Shown here: positions 66 to 63,935 of the stretch, in pieces | Layout of the letters: every line of letters begins with the position of its first letter | Position numbering within the stretch: position 1 is the stretch's first letter | Virus record (IMG/VR): IMGVR_UViG_3300035034_002798 | Location: 62,001-126,000 of that record | Length of the DNA stretch: 64,000 nt | Strand: one strand, 5' to 3' | Source of the DNA: a virus | Position numbers and translations under genes: made by a program | The notes under the pieces: model-generated | The model's database searches: none | What the model saw: only the letters and a program-made list of their open reading frames with translations | What the model was told of the DNA's origin: nothing

Positions 66-395
66 ATGGGAGGACATACAGACTACCCCCATGATAATTG
101 GGGGGTAGATTCTGATAGACTAAAAGGAGAAAACGTAAAAGACGCCAGGGATATCAAAAATAATGATAGTAAGTTCAGAGGGAATGTGGTAGATAACGAC
201 GCAAAGCAAAGCAACCATATTCCAGAAAATGACGACAAGGCAAGGTGGACACATTTCGACCACAGTGATTACACAGACACTCATCGGGATTATGGTTATG
301 ATGTTTATACAAATACCGGTCATGATGACCACACAAATAGTGGCCACGACGATCACACAAATTCTGGGCATGATACACATACTGACAGAGGTTAG
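66..395 (+). CDS. His/Asp-rich octad-repeat protein 1, candidate radical SAM substrate
   Basis: A 109-residue acidic protein of no family I recognise. Residues 1-65 are hydrophilic and leader-like. The last 45 residues are octads of the form G-H/Y-D-x-H/Y-T-N-x, ending with GHDDHTNS twice and then GHDTHTDR. The two identical octads use different codons (ggtcatgat against ggccacgac), so the peptide rather than the DNA is conserved. It has no Cys, signal peptide or membrane segment. AAGAAGGTG precedes the ATG. It follows the radical SAM/SPASM gene by 17 bases and precedes a second repeat gene by 31 bases, the usual layout of a maturase with its precursor peptides. I infer a modified (RiPP-like) peptide; a metal-binding repeat protein is the alternative. 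Confidence 0.8.
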   Translation: MGGHTDYPHDNWGVDSDRLKGENVKDARDIKNNDSKFRGNVVDNDAKQSNHIPENDDKARWTHFDHSDYTDTHRDYGYDVYTNTGHDDHTNSGHDDHTNSGHDTHTDRG

Positions 396-426: not shown

Positions 427-744
427 TTGGGATATGATTTATATGTAGATGATTACGCTAAATATGATAAAACAGGATCTTATGATGCTGGATCATACGG
501 GGACGGTCATTCGGACGACTCTGGTAGTGGTTATAGTGATGATGGTGGTTATAGCGAGTCAAGTCATGATACTCACAGCGATCACGATACGCACAGCAAC
601 TATGGTCATGATACGCATTCAAATTACGGCTATGATGATCATAATGACAATGGTAGTCACGATAACCACACAGACGGAACCTACAATCAGCATACAGATG
701 CTCCCCACGACAATAGTCACAGCGATTCTCCAGATTTATGGTAG
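427..744 (+). CDS. His/Asp-rich octad-repeat protein 2, candidate radical SAM substrate
   Basis: A 105-residue protein, started at TTG because AGAGGTG stands seven bases upstream. The N-terminal part is rich in Tyr, Asp, Gly and Ser. From about residue 46 it runs in octads: HDTHSNYG, then YDDHNDNG, SHDNHTDG and TYNQHTDA. Nearly every octad has a His or Tyr two or three residues before Asp or Asn. No Cys and no hydrophobic stretch. It shares the octad pattern with the gene 31 bases upstream but not its leader part, as expected for two substrates of one enzyme. A promoter of the conserved type lies directly after its stop, so it closes the radical SAM transcription unit. Function is inferred from context only. 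Confidence 0.8.
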   Translation: MGYDLYVDDYAKYDKTGSYDAGSYGDGHSDDSGSGYSDDGGYSESSHDTHSDHDTHSNYGHDTHSNYGYDDHNDNGSHDNHTDGTYNQHTDAPHDNSHSDSPDLW

Positions 745-33298: not shown

Positions 33299-35386
33299 CT
33301 ATTTATCTTCTAAAGTGCAATGACAATTGGTGTGGAATGGCGGCACCCTTTCATATAAGTTGCTGCCTTCTAAGTTGATCTTTTTCTTTTCTCCACATAA
33401 TTCACAAGTGTCTTCACTAGAATTAACTATCAACTCTGTTTTGCCTAAATCCCTTGCGGATACAGCATATCCGTAGTTATAGGCATGCATCATTTCTGTA
33501 AATGCAATGAAATCTATTCTATGAGCATAAGCCTCATAAAGCCTGTTGACTCTATTTAGAGCTTTACTCTTATTGTTGTTTTTAAGTGCTGTTTCTATTT
33601 TGGCCGACATTTCATCTGCCAGCTTATTGAAGTATTTTTTATGAGATTCCTCTACCTGTTTGATTTCATAATCGTGAGTGGCTTTAGACACTTTTTCATC
33701 TGCTATATCTTTAAAAGCTGTGTCGTTGCCTGCTTGGAAAGAAGTACTGAAGGTGTCAGCACTCATTTTGAGAGTTAATCGTGCGAGTGATTTAAGTGAG
33801 GATGTTATGTCTTTCGTGGAATTGGGGTGTTTCTTTTTGTTATCTTCGAAGTACTTTTCCGTAAGCTCTAATACATCTTTTTTGGAGTTTGTGTATTGCT
33901 TTTTTAGTTTGGAAAGATGCTTTTCATAATTTAAGTTATCGACAAGTTCATTTGCCGTAAGGCTCTCTAAGTTTTCCTTAGTCTTAGGCCCTCCCCTTTT
34001 TCCGCTCTGGTTTTCTGGGTTATTTTTATTATCAGTATCTGAGCTGCTTCCTTCGGAGTCTTCTGCATCAGATGTAGCTCCAGTAACCAGATTGATATGC
34101 ATTTTAGCCCTATCAGTTATGGGGTCCATTCCAATTTCCTGTCTCATCTCATCTTCTGTAATTGCATTATGTTCATATTTATATACTGCATGATTTTCCT
34201 TTTTTATTTTAAGCTCAGTATCTATTTCTCTAAACTGGAACTTAACTTCGCTTTCTGGGTTTTCTAAAGGATCATACCCAGCTTCAAGTAATAGTTCCTG
34301 TATCATGAACTCATTTAAAAAGGTTGATAATACTTCTTGAAAAGCTTTTATCCTATCATGCATCTCTTTTGTCATATTATCGGCAGTTGATCTATTGGCC
34401 GTGTCGCCTCTACCCATTACAGTAGACGACACTCCTAAACCGGTGAAGACTCGTTTTTCAAAGTGCTCCAGGTAGTCCTTGGCATCTATCGCCTCACCAT
34501 CTGCGCCGATTACTTTTATTTCGTGCCTCTCTGGGGTTACTATGCCGCCATCTGAGGGCATGTTCTCTATCTGATTTCTTACATTATCTATTTCTTTTTC
34601 GTCTGCTTCAAAACCGGGTTCTGCAATACCTACTTTGTACTGATATAAGGGGAAAAGGTGTCTATATAAAAGCCTTAAAACGCTTTCTTCTGCCTCTCTT
34701 AAAGCCCTTATGTCGTCTAGGACGGGAAGTATAAAAGGCTGTCCAAATGCCTTACCTCTGTCCTTTTTATAGTAGATATGTATTATGTCGTTGGGGTCAA
34801 ATTCGACTGGATCTCCAACCCCTGGCACTTCCTGTTTGTACTTAGTTATAGTTCCGTGTTCGTCTCTTAAAATTTCAACAGTAGTAGGATTTAATATAAA
34901 ATACCCAGCTATTGGTTGATTACCAGTCACACCGGTAAGACTAACACCCTGCATCTGCAAAGCTTTAGAATTATTTTCTCTTGCTTTTACTACAAAAACA
35001 TTGGAGTATTTAACTAAGTCCTCAGCCATTTCATTAAAAAACTGTTGAACGGGCTTGCCAGTTGCCAGGGCCATAACCTTAAACCTCTGTCTGATGTATT
35101 TTATTGCGTCTGAATCTGGCCCTACAAAATCATATGATTCTTTAAAGAGCAGCTCTATATACTTATCTACAGCCTGTCTTGTGTAACTTGAAGTAGCGTA
35201 AGCATCTGTTATTTGTTGAAAGTCCCATTGCGGGGCTTCAAATGTTTCTCCTCCGCCACCTCCTGCTATATCAGCTGTACCCACTCTTCCGATTCTTACA
35301 TTTTTAGGGTCATAATCTTGAGGTGAAGCGTTTTTTAAAGAAATCATACGATTGAAGAAATTACCAATTTTCTGGAATATCTTCAT
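33299..35386 (-). CDS. Portal-MuF fusion protein, twin of 11563
   Basis: Identical 695-residue protein; portal body to about residue 430, then a MuF-like domain ending in CELC and FHTNCHC. Confidence 0.88.
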   Translation of the reverse strand: MKIFQKIGNFFNRMISLKNASPQDYDPKNVRIGRVGTADIAGGGGGETFEAPQWDFQQITDAYATSSYTRQAVDKYIELLFKESYDFVGPDSDAIKYIRQRFKVMALATGKPVQQFFNEMAEDLVKYSNVFVVKARENNSKALQMQGVSLTGVTGNQPIAGYFILNPTTVEILRDEHGTITKYKQEVPGVGDPVEFDPNDIIHIYYKKDRGKAFGQPFILPVLDDIRALREAEESVLRLLYRHLFPLYQYKVGIAEPGFEADEKEIDNVRNQIENMPSDGGIVTPERHEIKVIGADGEAIDAKDYLEHFEKRVFTGLGVSSTVMGRGDTANRSTADNMTKEMHDRIKAFQEVLSTFLNEFMIQELLLEAGYDPLENPESEVKFQFREIDTELKIKKENHAVYKYEHNAITEDEMRQEIGMDPITDRAKMHINLVTGATSDAEDSEGSSSDTDNKNNPENQSGKRGGPKTKENLESLTANELVDNLNYEKHLSKLKKQYTNSKKDVLELTEKYFEDNKKKHPNSTKDITSSLKSLARLTLKMSADTFSTSFQAGNDTAFKDIADEKVSKATHDYEIKQVEESHKKYFNKLADEMSAKIETALKNNNKSKALNRVNRLYEAYAHRIDFIAFTEMMHAYNYGYAVSARDLGKTELIVNSSEDTCELCGEKKKINLEGSNLYERVPPFHTNCHCTLEDK

Positions 35387-38654: not shown

Positions 38655-40256
38655 CTAAAAACTGCTCCTTTTTGGAGGTCTTTTTAAAGTTCTGCTTCTA
38701 TTAAAGCTTGATCTTATGGCATTTGCTCCTTTTGACAGTCCTGGACCATCAAGGAAAGCAACACCTGTATTCTTAGATTTATTCTTGTCTTCTTCTCTTT
38801 TTTTCTTGTGTCGCGCGTAGTCGAGTCTGGGTGCTGTTGCTACATTACTTGCAAATTTTGACTTTGCTATATCTGTAAATTCTAACTGCATTGCGAGCAG
38901 ACTCAACATGAAAGCATCTAATGCATGTTCATTATCATCGTTGTATACCGGTCGGCCAGTTGGGGTTACTCTTTCTATATAATAATCAAGCATTTGCTCT
39001 TTTATCATCTGATCATTGCCTGGTAAGGCGATTCTCTCGTTTTCACATAATAAAACCGTTGTATTTACCATAAATGGTTTAATATGTTTTTTCCCGATTT
39101 CTTTGGTGTGAGGATCAGGAATATTAATTTTATCCGAGAAACTAATACCTTTAACCTTGTCTTCCAGTCCAGTACCAGGATGTGCTATTCCATATTTATG
39201 CAGGGCTTCTATTTGATACTCTCCGTGGCCCCTGTCAGCGTAAATGAAGTCTGGATCGAACTCTTCGTTTAACTCTACGATAGTGTCGATAGCATTTGAA
39301 TAAGTGAATTCTCCAGATGGTATCTCTGACCTGTTTATTGGATAGAATATATCCTCTTCAGGATCGTACTCTGATACTACAATCTGTGTTGCTGCACCAG
39401 CTTTATCCCAGTCGATACCTATCGTTCTAACAGCCTGGTAGTCGATCTCATCTACCAGCTCTATCCCTTTTTCTTTGCCTTTTTCTGCTGACTTCTCTAC
39501 AAACTTTCTCTGGAATACTCCTTCAGCCATATCTCCGAATTCTGCTAGTATCTCGTGTACATAACCGAGTTCAGTAAGGTTGTTGCGTGCATCTCTTTCT
39601 GCCGCATCTGACCAGTTAGGGTTAACATGAGATGTATAATGAAACTCTGTCCAGTCAAGTTCTTTTTTGGTACACCACTGCCAGAACCTGCCCCTGCGAC
39701 CAGTCGGCGTTGATGTTGCCCATATCTTTACGTTCTCAGCATCCTCATAGGCAACCGAGATAATTGTATCTATATCATCATCACTCAAATAATCTGCCTC
39801 ATCAAGATAAATGAGGTCCCCGCCCTGCCCACGAACGCTTGCTGCTCCGCCTCCGCCGGTGGTTCCTGCTGTAAATCCTACGATATAACTTCCGTTACCG
39901 AATTCTATTCTATTAGGTGATCTAATATCTCTGGTAACACTTTGCTGTATCATATCGCTTTTTTTAATTAGAGCTCTTAATCTCTGGAATATATGTTTAA
40001 TCTGTGACTCAAAAGGTGTAACAATCAATACCCTGTATCCTTCTATTGTGAATGCTGAGTGAAGCATTTTAATTACGGCCATATCGGTTTTACCAATACG
40101 ACGACCAGCTCTTACAACTACTCTATTCTCATCTGAGTTGAGCATGGTCTCCTGGTAAGATCTTGCTGTCCAGTCAAGTTCATATTCTGCAAACTTAACG
40201 GGATCTTCTAGTATTTCAAGAGTATTTAGTTCCTCATCTGTAAAATTTTCACTCAT
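38655..40256 (-). CDS. terL: Terminase large subunit, twin of 6693
   Basis: Identical 533-residue packaging ATPase/nuclease with Walker A GRRIGKTD, Walker B DLIYLDEA and RNase H-like acidic residues. Confidence 0.95.
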   Translation of the reverse strand: MSENFTDEELNTLEILEDPVKFAEYELDWTARSYQETMLNSDENRVVVRAGRRIGKTDMAVIKMLHSAFTIEGYRVLIVTPFESQIKHIFQRLRALIKKSDMIQQSVTRDIRSPNRIEFGNGSYIVGFTAGTTGGGGAASVRGQGGDLIYLDEADYLSDDDIDTIISVAYEDAENVKIWATSTPTGRRGRFWQWCTKKELDWTEFHYTSHVNPNWSDAAERDARNNLTELGYVHEILAEFGDMAEGVFQRKFVEKSAEKGKEKGIELVDEIDYQAVRTIGIDWDKAGAATQIVVSEYDPEEDIFYPINRSEIPSGEFTYSNAIDTIVELNEEFDPDFIYADRGHGEYQIEALHKYGIAHPGTGLEDKVKGISFSDKINIPDPHTKEIGKKHIKPFMVNTTVLLCENERIALPGNDQMIKEQMLDYYIERVTPTGRPVYNDDNEHALDAFMLSLLAMQLEFTDIAKSKFASNVATAPRLDYARHKKKREEDKNKSKNTGVAFLDGPGLSKGANAIRSSFNRSRTLKRPPKRSSF

Positions 40257-46069: not shown

Positions 46070-46118
46070 CCGTTGTCACTCCTGTAAGCACGCCTTTATT
46101 TAAATGTGCTTCTATATA

Positions 46119-46199
46119 TATAATACCCGTTTTAGGGGGTGTTTTGCCAAGTCGAAAAAGATTTTCCTAACCATTTCCAGTTTTTCTTGTTAAAAGAAA
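46119..46199 (-). promoter_or_regulatory. Conserved late-type promoter, twin of 750
   Basis: TTGGCA (46145-46150) and TATTAT (46120-46125) on the minus strand with 19-base spacing and the shared upstream block. It drives zinc-ribbon, terminase and head genes leftwards. Confidence 0.7.
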
Positions 46200-46204
46200 A
46201 TAAT

Positions 46205-46522
46205 CTACCATAAATCTGGAGAATCGCTGTGACTATTGTCGTGGGGAGCATCTGTATGCTGATTGTAGGTTCCGTCTGTGTGGTTATCGTGACTACCATT
46301 GTCATTATGATCATCATAGCCGTAATTTGAATGCGTATCATGACCATAGTTGCTGTGCGTATCGTGATCGCTGTGAGTATCATGACTTGACTCGCTATAA
46401 CCACCATCATCACTATAACCACTACCAGAGTCGTCCGAATGACCGTCCCCGTATGATCCAGCATCATAAGATCCTGTTTTATCATATTTAGCGTAATCAT
46501 CTACATATAAATCATATCCCAA
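46205..46522 (-). CDS. His/Asp-rich octad-repeat protein 2, twin of 427
   Basis: Identical 105-residue octad-repeat protein. This copy is contiguous with the intact radical SAM gene, as third gene of its transcription unit, and the next promoter lies just after its stop. Confidence 0.8.
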   Translation of the reverse strand: MGYDLYVDDYAKYDKTGSYDAGSYGDGHSDDSGSGYSDDGGYSESSHDTHSDHDTHSNYGHDTHSNYGYDDHNDNGSHDNHTDGTYNQHTDAPHDNSHSDSPDLW

Positions 46523-46553
46523 ATTAAATCACCTCTATCTTCTTTTGATATTA

Positions 46554-46883
46554 CTAACCTCTGTCAGTATGTGTATCATGCCCAGAATTTGTGTGATCGT
46601 CGTGGCCACTATTTGTGTGGTCATCATGACCGGTATTTGTATAAACATCATAACCATAATCCCGATGAGTGTCTGTGTAATCACTGTGGTCGAAATGTGT
46701 CCACCTTGCCTTGTCGTCATTTTCTGGAATATGGTTGCTTTGCTTTGCGTCGTTATCTACCACATTCCCTCTGAACTTACTATCATTATTTTTGATATCC
46801 CTGGCGTCTTTTACGTTTTCTCCTTTTAGTCTATCAGAATCTACCCCCCAATTATCATGGGGGTAGTCTGTATGTCCTCCCAT
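46554..46883 (-). CDS. His/Asp-rich octad-repeat protein 1, twin of 66
   Basis: Identical 109-residue octad-repeat protein, 17 bases downstream of the complete radical SAM/SPASM gene; candidate substrate of that enzyme. Confidence 0.8.
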   Translation of the reverse strand: MGGHTDYPHDNWGVDSDRLKGENVKDARDIKNNDSKFRGNVVDNDAKQSNHIPENDDKARWTHFDHSDYTDTHRDYGYDVYTNTGHDDHTNSGHDDHTNSGHDTHTDRG

Positions 46884-46900
46884 CCTAGCACCTTCTTTCT

Positions 46901-48115
46901 CTATCTATTTAATTTACTGCTGTCAAATAAAGATCTTTGAGCATGCATTCTCTTGAATGGATTGTGCTTACTGTTTCTGCCGGATCTATTTCTGTAATCT
47001 TTATGTTCATCTTCTATTCTTATCGGTTCATCTACTACTAGGTCTATATGTGGAAACATGGACTGCATTCTCTCTGTGATGTAAGCATAAGTTTTAAAAG
47101 TTGCTTTACAATAATGATCTTTTCTCATATAATCATCGTCTCTTGCTCTTCCTGGACAACCACCGTAACACACCTTGAAGAAACGGCATCCTTGGCAGTC
47201 TTTCTGTAATAATAACTCATGTCTACCAGTAAAACTATTATCATCAAAAGGAATTGGATTACCGCCTTCATCTACCTGTTTTACACACGTAGAAAGGTCT
47301 CCGTCTGGTAATACAACCCTGCCTGCTGGTGTTTTGAAAGGTTCGCACTTTGTTTGAGTGCAGCAGCCTAATCCGTATCCCATTAAGTTGTCAGCAAATT
47401 CCCTAAAAGGATTATATCTTCTACGAGGCGAACTCAGGACGTATTCAGCTAGTCTTTCATAAACTATTGCAGCTCTCTCTCTACTTAGTTCTATTTCTGG
47501 AGTATCTCCATCTATGAATGCAAGGTTTAACCTACCACCTGTAATATCAAATTCTTCTTCTAATCTTCTTAAAAAGTTTAAAAACTTGTCTAATTTTTCA
47601 TCAGTGCCAACATTACCTTGGTGCAATACGGAAATAAAACCTGGGCGTACACCAGCATCTACCAGTTTTTTAAGAGTATCTTCAAGTCTGTTAGTGTATT
47701 CTTTTGTTCTTTCAACATCTGGATAACCTCTTAGATCATTCAAGTCACCGAATCCATCAAAAGAAATTCCAACACCAACATCATGTTTTTTAAATAATTC
47801 TACATGCTCATCGGTGATAAGATTTCCATTTGTTTGGATTCCTACTTTTTTTCCTAGATCGTTTTTATCCAGAATCTCGTTTGAAAATCTAATCAATTCT
47901 TCTAACTCGTCTATCGGAAGCAGTAGCGGCTCACCACCGTGGATTGTGATCCCATCTCTATTGCCAAATCTTTCATGATGTTTTTCTATCGACTCTTTCA
48001 TTAGTTCTATATCAGTTTCTACATTGGACTTATCTGATTCTAAAAGTCCTTCCTGGTGTTCGTAACAATAATCGCAGTTTAAATCGCATTTTAGTACTGG
48101 TTTAACTAATAACAT
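46901..48115 (-). CDS. Radical SAM/SPASM peptide-maturase-like enzyme
   Basis: A 404-residue enzyme. I place the start at ATG 48115 (AAGGGGGAG upstream); a longer frame to 48211 would run through its own promoter. C10, C14 and C17 (CDLNCDYC) bind the SAM [4Fe-4S] cluster, and GGEP near residue 60 follows. The C-terminal third is a SPASM/twitch domain for auxiliary clusters: CCTQTKC, a Cys after LPDGDLST, then C-x2-C-x5-C-x3-C (CQGCRFFKVCYGGC) and a last Cys (HYCKATF). Such enzymes install C-C, C-S or C-O crosslinks in ribosomal peptides or mature sulfatases. No sulfatase is present; two octad-repeat proteins follow directly, so they are the likely substrates. Oxygen sensitivity implies an anaerobic host. 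Confidence 0.9.
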   Translation of the reverse strand: MLLVKPVLKCDLNCDYCYEHQEGLLESDKSNVETDIELMKESIEKHHERFGNRDGITIHGGEPLLLPIDELEELIRFSNEILDKNDLGKKVGIQTNGNLITDEHVELFKKHDVGVGISFDGFGDLNDLRGYPDVERTKEYTNRLEDTLKKLVDAGVRPGFISVLHQGNVGTDEKLDKFLNFLRRLEEEFDITGGRLNLAFIDGDTPEIELSRERAAIVYERLAEYVLSSPRRRYNPFREFADNLMGYGLGCCTQTKCEPFKTPAGRVVLPDGDLSTCVKQVDEGGNPIPFDDNSFTGRHELLLQKDCQGCRFFKVCYGGCPGRARDDDYMRKDHYCKATFKTYAYITERMQSMFPHIDLVVDEPIRIEDEHKDYRNRSGRNSKHNPFKRMHAQRSLFDSSKLNR

Positions 48116-48156
48116 ACTTCTCCCCCTTGTTAAAATTAAATTATCTTCTATTATAT

Positions 48157-48235
48157 ATAATACGCATTTTAGAGGGTGTTTTGCCAAGTAGAGACTGGGA
48201 TTCCTAACCAAATCCCGTTTTTTACGTTAAAAAAA
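48157..48235 (-). promoter_or_regulatory. Conserved late-type promoter B, upstream of radical SAM gene
   Basis: On the minus strand: TTTTTTTAACGT block, ATTTGGTTAGGAAT box, TTGGCA (48182-48187), 19 bases, TATTAT (48157-48162), then the radical SAM ATG about 42 bases on. Same architecture as 46119-46199 and 58220-58287. Confidence 0.7.
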
Positions 48236-48372: not shown

Positions 48373-48404
48373 CATAGATTATGTTGATAATTTTTTGATT
48401 ATAA

Positions 48405-48557
48405 GAACAGGAGAAGATCAATAATATATCAAACGATTAAGGAGTTGAATTTAAAGAACAGGAGAAGATCAATAATATATCAAACGATTAAGGAGTTGAA
48501 TTTAAAGAACAGGAGAAGATCAATAATATATCAAACGATTAAGGAGTTGAATTTAAA
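48405..48557 (+). repeat. Three perfect tandem copies of a 51-bp leader unit
   Basis: Units at 48405-48455, 48456-48506 and 48507-48557 are identical. Each contains a ribosome binding site AAGGAG followed by TTG. Being 51 bp (17 codons), the repeat keeps an open frame into the gene at 48559, so copy number could change the N-terminus or the number of binding sites. Confidence 0.9.
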
Positions 48558-48558
48558 G

Positions 48559-48960
48559 ATGGGATTTAAGGCGGTTATGTTGGACAACACTGTAGAGCTT
48601 CAAGGGGAAACAGGTAGTAGATGTATAAACATAACAGGTGACCTATCGCTTAAAGTATTAAGAAGAGAATGTGGTAGTACTCTTATGTGTGTGAGCTGCA
48701 ATGAGGAATTTAGCAGTGAGGCCATTGGTAATACCCTAGAGATACCAGACACCATAATTGAATTGTTCGAACTAAGTAATGGTCAAAATTATAGCACCTT
48801 TGTTAATGATGACGGTTCGGTTTCAATAGAGTTTGAAAAAGATGAATGTGTTGTCTGTGAAAAGGATAGGACTGGTAGTTATGATTTAATACCAGCAAAA
48901 GAAAAATATGTCTGCGAAGAATGTTTTCAGAACATGAGAAAGCATAGACTACTAAGATAA
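48559..48960 (+). CDS. Cys-pair (zinc-finger-like) early protein
   Basis: A 133-residue protein if begun at ATG 48559; the AAGGAG of the last tandem unit is 12 bases upstream. TTG starts inside the repeat would add 17-residue units (KNRRRSIIYQTIKELNL). Three CxxC pairs are seen: CVSC near 45, CVVC near 100 and CEEC near 122, suggesting zinc binding. Otherwise beta-rich and acidic. No family recognised. Followed by two hairpins that separate it from the convergent partition genes. Confidence 0.65.
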   Translation: MGFKAVMLDNTVELQGETGSRCINITGDLSLKVLRRECGSTLMCVSCNEEFSSEAIGNTLEIPDTIIELFELSNGQNYSTFVNDDGSVSIEFEKDECVVCEKDRTGSYDLIPAKEKYVCEECFQNMRKHRLLR

Positions 48961-61907: not shown

Positions 61908-63935
61908 ATGGACATTCAAGCGCTTTATATTGGCGAAGAGGGTTTTGGTGAGGCTCTAATGCATTATTGTGATAAAGACAATTGCAAAAATAACATCAAA
62001 AAAGTAACAAAAGCTACAATGTTATCTCTTCTGAGCGGTTTAGACAGCAGCACTGACATTTATAAAAAAATAAGTCTCGTATCTCAAGAGGTAGAACTTA
62101 TTGAAATAATAAAGAAGATAAAACCAAGAAAAATATTTGACGTATTCAAGAGGTTTATGACTTATCTAGACCGTTTTAAAGAAGATAATGCTGAAGTTAA
62201 TCACTATTATAACAGTGAAAAAGAAATAAGAATTAACTTTAGAAAAAATTTGTATGAATTATTTATAAAAAAGCTTTTATCGTTCGATGTTAGGCTATCA
62301 GATACAAAGGATAGAACTTACTCTATATCATATAAGCATTATAATGTTTCTGAAAGATTAATGGAGTCCCACTATTTTTGTTCTTGTGGACATGAAGATG
62401 AGGTTAAAACCCGGGGGGTAAAAATACACGGAGTTTTAATGGATGGCGATTTGAAGCGACACCGTATAAAGACAGTCTGTTCAGAGTGCTTGAATTCTAA
62501 CTTTAAGCAATTGGTACAGAACCCTACACCACAAAGCGTTGAAGCTTATCAAGATTTTTTCGAAGATGGTAGTAAAATTAAGGTGTCATCTAAGAGATTG
62601 GAATCTGGCTATAATATAAAGAGTGGTAAAAGATACTTTGAAATAAAATATCACAACAAAATAGTATTAAATTTAAAAAGCGGACGAAGTTTCTATCTAT
62701 TTAAAAATCACGAATATCAGCAATTCAGAGTTCGTGCCCTTAAAACACATCATAGTACTTATGTTGGTGATACCGAAAAGATTCAATTATATAGAGCATT
62801 TGCTAGGAAAAAGTTTAAAGTAGAATTCATAGAAAGTGCTATTGATTCTGTCTTTACTGACAAATCAGCCAAAACTGAGGTAGTTGAACCTTTTAGAAAG
62901 ATTCCGTCTATGGAGAAAATCAATCAAACTATAATAAGAAAATTACCTCACTATTTAGCTGTAATAAATAGAAATCCAGAGTTAAAGGATCTACTGCAGT
63001 TTATATACGATAATGTAGATAACAAACTTCTTATTGATTTTATAGTACTTTCAATGCTTGAGAACTACCCCAGAGGTGATTTTACAGGAGCACCAGAAAA
63101 AGTACTATCTACTATTTTTAACAGAGAGATAACTAAACCTCTTTTGAGAGAGATAACTAAAAACTACTATATTAGAAGTTATGATGGTTTCCTTACTTCT
63201 CTTGAAATCTATAAATTGTTTGGTCTCGATAATGGTAGAGATATAATTAATTCTAAACAAATGAAAAAGTTTATTAAGTTTTTTCGTAAATTTATATTAG
63301 ACGATGATATCGAAGATGATGACGTATTTGAATCTACTTATGATACTTATAATAAACAGTTATTTAAAGATTTACTTAGATATTACAATGGTGATATGAC
63401 AATGATTAAGAGTAAATTACACAAAATCTTTTCTGATAACGATATGTATCTATATAGAGATTCATATAGAATATATGAGGACTTAATACAAGAAGGTATG
63501 GATTTGAATTTAGACATAATTTCTTATTCTGTATCTGAACTTGTAGATATTCATGACAATTTAACCGACCTTTATAACAAGAACAAAAATAAAAGATTAA
63601 ACAAAGCCTATAATGAAAGATATGAAGAAAACAAGAAACTAGAGTTTGATGGTGACCATTATGTGATTAAAACTCCTCAATCACTAGAAGAGTTGAGCAA
63701 AGAGGGAATGGAAATGGGTCATTGCGTTGGCACATACGATAAGATGCTGGCTCGGGGTTCATGTAAGATTTACTTTTTAAGAACTAAAGACAACGAGAGA
63801 GTCGCAACAGTTGAAGTAAGAGGAGATGATGTTGTGCAGGTCAAATCAAAGCACAACAATAAACCACCAGAAGACGCGTTAGATTTTGTCAATGAATGGA
63901 CGGAAAACAAGGAGCTTTCATATACAAGTTGGTAA
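61908..63935 (+). CDS. PcfJ-like protein
   Basis: A 675-residue protein with AAAGGAG upstream. The last 90 residues hold the PcfJ pattern: LEELSKEGMEMGHCVGTYDK, then KIYFLRTKDNERVATVEV and a QVKSKHNNKP stretch. PcfJ-like proteins occur on conjugative plasmids and phages; activity unknown. Residues 165-205 contain a Cys cluster (FCSCGHEDE ... VCSECLNSN) likely to bind zinc. The middle is helical. Family call rests on the C-terminal domain. Confidence 0.8.
   Translation: MDIQALYIGEEGFGEALMHYCDKDNCKNNIKKVTKATMLSLLSGLDSSTDIYKKISLVSQEVELIEIIKKIKPRKIFDVFKRFMTYLDRFKEDNAEVNHYYNSEKEIRINFRKNLYELFIKKLLSFDVRLSDTKDRTYSISYKHYNVSERLMESHYFCSCGHEDEVKTRGVKIHGVLMDGDLKRHRIKTVCSECLNSNFKQLVQNPTPQSVEAYQDFFEDGSKIKVSSKRLESGYNIKSGKRYFEIKYHNKIVLNLKSGRSFYLFKNHEYQQFRVRALKTHHSTYVGDTEKIQLYRAFARKKFKVEFIESAIDSVFTDKSAKTEVVEPFRKIPSMEKINQTIIRKLPHYLAVINRNPELKDLLQFIYDNVDNKLLIDFIVLSMLENYPRGDFTGAPEKVLSTIFNREITKPLLREITKNYYIRSYDGFLTSLEIYKLFGLDNGRDIINSKQMKKFIKFFRKFILDDDIEDDDVFESTYDTYNKQLFKDLLRYYNGDMTMIKSKLHKIFSDNDMYLYRDSYRIYEDLIQEGMDLNLDIISYSVSELVDIHDNLTDLYNKNKNKRLNKAYNERYEENKKLEFDGDHYVIKTPQSLEELSKEGMEMGHCVGTYDKMLARGSCKIYFLRTKDNERVATVEVRGDDVVQVKSKHNNKPPEDALDFVNEWTENKELSYTSW

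Follow-up and report, generated by a model that had tools for sequence, protein, structure and literature searches.

A divergent phage radical SAM/SPASM enzyme encoded beside aromatic-x-Asp/Asn array proteins: probable member of a widespread, putatively peptide-modifying system

Cross-links between residues i and i+2 of a peptide are known from several enzymes, including Tyr/Asp for YxdB, His/Ala for HaaB, Trp/Asn or Trp/Asp for OscB, and Phe/Asn for both XncB and OscB (PMC11002830). In phages, a radical SAM module was noted in 2024 in the Thermus phages Cumys and phiMa, where a role in DNA modification was suggested and HxD arrays were not reported (PMC11437467). The gene module is already known from Thermus phages; in the open-access literature, neither HxD arrays nor their association with the enzyme nor an aromatic-x-Asp/Asn rule was found described, and within that literature these three are new.

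Here, a locus of this kind was analysed in a window of 64,000 nucleotides (positions 62,001 to 126,000 of IMG/VR virus record IMGVR_UViG_3300035034_002798). A preliminary description of this DNA had proposed a 404-residue enzyme and two Cys-free repeat proteins, all of which were found at the place given for them, on the minus strand. The features discussed below are the following.

46901..48115, minus strand: radical SAM/SPASM enzyme, 404 aa, ATG at 48115, ribosome-binding site GGGGGAG (Pfam PF04055 and motifs)
46554..46883, minus strand: P1, array protein of 109 aa, putative substrate, with 10 HxD/N and 2 YxD/N motifs and four C-terminal octads
46205..46522, minus strand: P2, array protein of 105 aa, putative substrate, TTG start, ribosome-binding site AGAGGTGAT, with 10 HxD/N and 4 YxD/N motifs
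48136..48235, minus strand: 100-bp element, copy 1, upstream of the enzyme, probable phage promoter/leader, 79% identical to 46100-46199
46100..46199, minus strand: 100-bp element, copy 2, downstream of P2 and upstream of the next gene, 79% identical to copy 1
66..395, plus strand: mirror copy of P1 (palindromic record)
427..744, plus strand: mirror copy of P2 (palindromic record)
38655..40256, minus strand: terminase large subunit, late-gene context marker (PHROG phrog_2, E 2.8e-35)
33299..35386, minus strand: portal protein, context marker (phrog_9232, E 1.4e-86)

A plausible ribosome-binding site precedes the enzyme, P1 and P2 alike, and the two 100-bp elements frame these three genes as one unit. 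A sigma-70 consensus scan lends no support to the promoter ascribed to the enzyme, as it gave no promoter excess (8 matches vs 10.8 expected) and did not match copy 1, but the recurrence of the same element before the enzyme and after P2 is consistent with a probable phage promoter/leader. Three near-identical 52-bp direct repeats at 48399-48559 immediately precede a zinc-finger-like ORF of the plus strand, the listed start of which runs through them.

Placement of the enzyme and its arrays at the head of the late genes is supported by what lies downstream on the same strand, namely tRNAs and genes for terminase, portal, head and tail-like proteins. The record of 170,948 bases is a perfect palindrome with only 85,474 bases of unique sequence; in the window, positions 1-46948 mirror themselves about 23474.5, and P1 and P2 are therefore mirrored as listed above. 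A patatin-like ORF is cut off at the palindrome centre of the record, which suggests that the palindrome probably arose during amplification or assembly; the record is thus likely to be incomplete and may be missing genes beyond that centre. Close relatives of this phage, with 84% in terminase, are fragments, and a search of them did not find the enzyme. Two further radical SAM genes, tandem and similar, are present in the same phage without array neighbours (L014 943-2052 and 2053-3210), together with an anaerobic ribonucleotide reductase activator-like gene (L014 8862-9425), which hints at an anaerobic host.

The enzyme is a radical SAM/SPASM protein of the peptide-modifying fold class. Both motif sets noted at the outset are present, namely the CX3CX2C motif CDLNCDYC (Cys10/14/17) and a complete SPASM set (Cys 252/257/277/307/310/316/320/336; CX9-15GX4C ... 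CX2CX5CX3C ... C), and Cys10/14/17 and all eight SPASM Cys are invariant across 36 aligned members. Pfam PF04055 is matched with E 1.3e-19 (71 bits vs a cut-off of 29.5). An AF2 model (pLDDT 81) found anSMEcpe and ChlB as its best Foldseek matches, and also matched SuiB and the thioether-forming enzyme of PDB 5wgg/5why. The nearest solved sequence is ChlB (PDB 9gm3; E 1.6e-15, ~20% identity), on which a search of the open-access literature gave nothing useful. When the enzyme was profiled against SPASM subfamilies, cyclophane-maturase models matched but every curated cut-off was missed: the best NCBIfam model, DynA (NF041298), gave 116/450 bits, the XyeB, GrrM, FxsB, YhhB and AmcB models gave 57-91 bits (cut-offs 310-450), and HxsB gave 40/370 bits. 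The DynA, AmcB, YhhB, FxsB, GrrM and XyeB models are matched by 36/36 aligned family members, but the family as such is not covered by any curated NCBIfam model. Within this family it is strongly divergent, with 26-33% identity to relatives and a tree branch of 2.8; it shares a long branch with L118 and L166 (support 99/99), both of which carry arrays.

Used as a single query, the window enzyme found no match in viral and genome collections, and a DNA-level search in phages gave none either. A tblastn search in phages pointed to the Thermus phages phiLo, phiMa and Cumys (~32-33% identity), and it was only after the window enzyme had been aligned with their enzymes that relatives were found. 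This alignment-based search returned 54 IMG/VR viral loci and 27 bacterial loci at about 30% identity. Beside the enzyme, Cumys_13 and phiMa_29 each contain about 250 residues of HxD repeats, and all 54 His of Cumys_13 lie in HxD; proteins 135 to 137 of phiLo, next to baseplate genes, contain 67, 113 and 80 [HY]x[DN] motifs. Nearly all viral loci have at least one array, usually in a gene that ends at or just before the enzyme start codon. In 36/37 distinct viral loci the upstream neighbour of the enzyme gene is an array, compared with 22/428 other ORFs (Fisher p 3e-37).

The pairing also holds in reverse. A degenerate DNA pattern for (HxDx)4, applied without the enzyme, returned 120 stretches. 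Among 21 records with diverse arrays (>=13 motifs), the enzyme occurs in 16 stretches and elsewhere in the record in 2 more (18/21, a set in which L123 and L189 possibly represent one phage and a small number of contigs are shared with the 54 loci), whereas it occurs in none of 96 pattern-matched stretches with microsatellite-like or no arrays. As for the enzyme-free matches, L184 and L203 carry real arrays on short fragments, and L200 was set aside as what looked like a frame-shifted low-complexity ORF. The association of enzyme and arrays is thus well supported, and the homologues collected for co-occurrence have the repeats consistently next to the enzyme, the opposite of the pattern that would speak against it.

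The arrays follow a simple rule. In 75 non-redundant arrays (81 array segments), 97.2% of 2608 His have Asp or Asn at +2, a figure that is biased upward since arrays were chosen by motif density; no other offset matches it. Motif spacing is free, mostly 3 to 9. Between related arrays of different phages, H is kept at 94%, D/N at 96%, x at 56% and spacers at 50%, a contrast that may be inflated by anchoring of the alignments on H and D. HxD is also found in the C-terminal tails of the enzyme in many phages. The repeating unit is therefore a tripeptide, [H/Y/F]-x-[D/N], mostly His-x-Asp, with free spacing, and the His/Tyr-x-Asn/Asp pairs proposed at first as sites are indeed the unit conserved across the family.

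P1 and P2 both lack Cys, and 20/25 of their His (10/12 in P1, 10/13 in P2) lie inside HxD/N. Composition shuffles reach the observed [HY]x[DN] count in a fraction of 1e-4 of trials for P1 and 6.5e-4 for P2. Among offsets from His to D/N, enrichment is strongest at +2 in both proteins, with a weaker excess at -2 in P2. The preliminary description had taken octads (G-H/Y-D-x-H/Y-x-N/D-x) as the repeat and small Cys-free proteins as their carriers. Such octads are present in P1, where GHDDHTNS forms a 24-bp tandem repeat of 3.4 copies; the free motif spacing across arrays rules them out as the unit, and they represent the local spacing of P1. Both terms fit only the window member, because the array proteins of most relatives are large and resemble tail fibres. 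Many relatives show N-terminal repeats of fibre type or tail domains, and P1 and P2 have neither.

Several variants are found across the family. Loci first scored as having no array proved to carry the motif as well. In L074, L075 and L078, the upstream protein ends in a stretch with about 5 to 14 HxD/N motifs. In the fibre-like protein of L030, which has the same N-terminal repeats as His arrays, 39/43 Phe occur as FxD/N. With Phe able to stand in for His, what the arrays share is an aromatic residue at position -2 from Asp/Asn; this is the rule of triceptides (PMC11002830) and not a metal-binding rule. Many array proteins have three GSIWVEG-type N-terminal repeats, collagen-like sequence or a LamG domain, and their neighbours include baseplate and tail genes in Thermus phages and host-specificity, tail-fibre and tape-measure-like proteins in the IMG/VR loci. 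In Bradyrhizobium (7 loci), Sphingomonas and Marinicella, precursor-like peptides of 79-99 aa end in a single HIDIL/HVDF/HIDF-type motif. In Pseudoalteromonas (L086/L087 8945-9229), the enzyme is adjoined by a 94-aa peptide that contains HTD/HSD/HTD as well as a long V/I-D alternation and is possibly another substrate type. Bacterial HxD-array proteins with TAT-like signal sequences (L083 8354-9280, L098 13370-13852) raise the prospect that secreted or surface forms may exist outside phages. Arrays are rich in Asn (23-55% of HxD/N) and FxN in one enzyme clade (L026, L033-L040, L049-L054) and have 56-65% Asn in another (L028, L046, L059), suggesting that the +2 residue tracks enzyme lineage. 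Two adjacent enzymes of the family and several arrays are present in a single phage in L063 and L066.

In almost every relative, a DUF483 gene lies beside the enzyme. Fusions of DUF483 with a methyltransferase are frequent, and fusions with the enzyme itself occur in some relatives, in single ORFs of L073, L076, L081 and L084. A model of DUF483 (pLDDT 94) gave no convincing match in a fold search of the PDB. A search of the window record for this DUF483/methyltransferase partner (own HMM and PF04467) found none, so that the window may contain a reduced version of the system, with the proviso that part of the genome is probably missing from the record.

Taken together, we give a probability of roughly 0.7 to the reading that the enzyme is a peptide-modifying SPASM maturase with P1 and P2 as its substrates, joining residue i to residue i+2 as in triceptides. 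The enzyme would read aromatic-x-Asp/Asn, mainly His-x-Asp, with Tyr-x-Asp/Asn in the window and Phe-x-Asn/Asp in relatives. By analogy with three-residue cyclophane enzymes, the most likely course on the arrays is that a 5'-deoxyadenosyl radical would take H from C-beta of Asp/Asn, the carbon radical would attack the aromatic ring two positions earlier, and an auxiliary cluster would accept the extra electron; the ring of residue i would thereby be joined to C-beta of residue i+2, with 2 H lost per site. Repeated along the array, this would yield a stiff chain of small, strained three-residue rings. In phages the substrate would be a tail-fibre-like protein with tens to about 110 sites, and gene context suggests that such proteins may be part of the virion; in some bacteria it would be a short precursor-like peptide with one C-terminal HxD. 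Counting against this reading are that no curated cyclophane cut-off was passed, that the window enzyme is divergent, that P1 and P2 have no fibre-like repeats, that 5/25 His lie outside HxD/N, and that the DUF483/methyltransferase partner common in relatives was not found in the record.

The alternative that fares best, though we consider it unlikely, is that the enzyme acts on the arrays with some other change, such as epimerisation of Asp/Asn or His, an imidazole C-N bond (dynobactin-like), an ether or a desaturation, one motif residue then serving for recognition only. It is favoured by DynA being the best NCBIfam model, since dynobactin carries a C-N cross-link (PMC11002830), and by the common methyltransferase-bearing partner, which makes more than one modification likely in most relatives. 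However, the Phe of the L030 fibre is incapable of an imidazole C-N bond, and the freedom of x with both i and i+2 fixed is as expected if both side chains react.

Far less probable is an explanation in which enzyme and arrays are linked by position only, the arrays serving as rods that bind metal in tail fibres. Metal is readily coordinated by His and Asp, and phage tail tips are known to contain HxH motifs that bind it. The enzyme would then modify something else, e.g., DNA, and homologues do lie near deazapurine DNA-modification genes (PMC11437467). This is opposed by a linkage that is reciprocal and far above background, by the inability of Phe arrays to bind metal, by the HxD in enzyme C-terminal tails of many phages, by the resemblance of relatives with short one-HxD peptides to RiPP loci, and by the peptide-modifying SPASM class of the enzyme fold.

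A further explanation, with an ordinary SPASM enzyme such as an anaerobic sulfatase maturase beside low-complexity ORFs that contain the repeats by chance, is already contradicted: although anSMEcpe is among the best Foldseek matches and TIGR03942 (anaerobic sulfatase maturase) is matched with E 1.6e-26, the score is only 93/349 bits, below the cut-off, no sulfatase (PF00884) was found in the record, the two other radical SAM genes of the genome have no adjoining array, and the arrays show conservation and for the most part do not consist of simple DNA repeats.

Returning to the triceptide-like reading, the same pairing occurs in dozens of further phages and bacteria, and the locus probably represents a widespread system, as yet without a name, in which side chains of tail-fibre-like proteins are stitched into chains of tiny rings. 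We give about even odds to the wider proposal that many tailed phages build fibre arms of dozens to about a hundred His-x-Asp/Phe-x-Asn units, each ring-closed by a dedicated radical SAM enzyme, with RiPP chemistry supplying a structural material of the virus and not a secreted peptide. If true, phage arrays would rank among the most heavily modified ribosomally made proteins known, peptide cross-linking would no longer be confined to small natural products but would reach large structural proteins, rigid rods could be made with a programmable tripeptide tag, and the gene module seen in cultured Thermus phages would be explained.

With regard to known systems, the locus resembles the triceptide/3-CyFE systems (XncB/XyeB, OscB/GrrM, MscB/FxsB, YxdB, HaaB and YhhB) in having a SPASM enzyme beside an aromatic-x-X3 peptide. 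Unlike in these, the window enzyme falls below every curated family cut-off tested, most substrates are large tail-like proteins of phages in which the sites number from tens to about 110, and the usual partner is a DUF483/methyltransferase protein. The radical SAM module of Cumys and phiMa belongs to the same enzyme family, with a homologous enzyme next to an aromatic-x-D/N array, whereas the window record has no DUF483 gene. The His-Xaa-Ser system (HxsA-D) likewise combines a radical SAM enzyme with a His-x-residue repeat protein, but the HxsB model scores far below its cut-off and the +2 residue is Asp/Asn here and Ser there. In the TVGG/TvgB poly-cyclopropylglycine system, a SPASM enzyme also modifies a repeat at many sites (PMC9062424), although its substrate is TVGG, the modification lies within one residue, and the system is bacterial and not of phage origin. 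The ChlB-ChlA radical SAM pair provides the closest solved sequence and a close fold, from which the window enzyme is separated by an identity of only ~20%.
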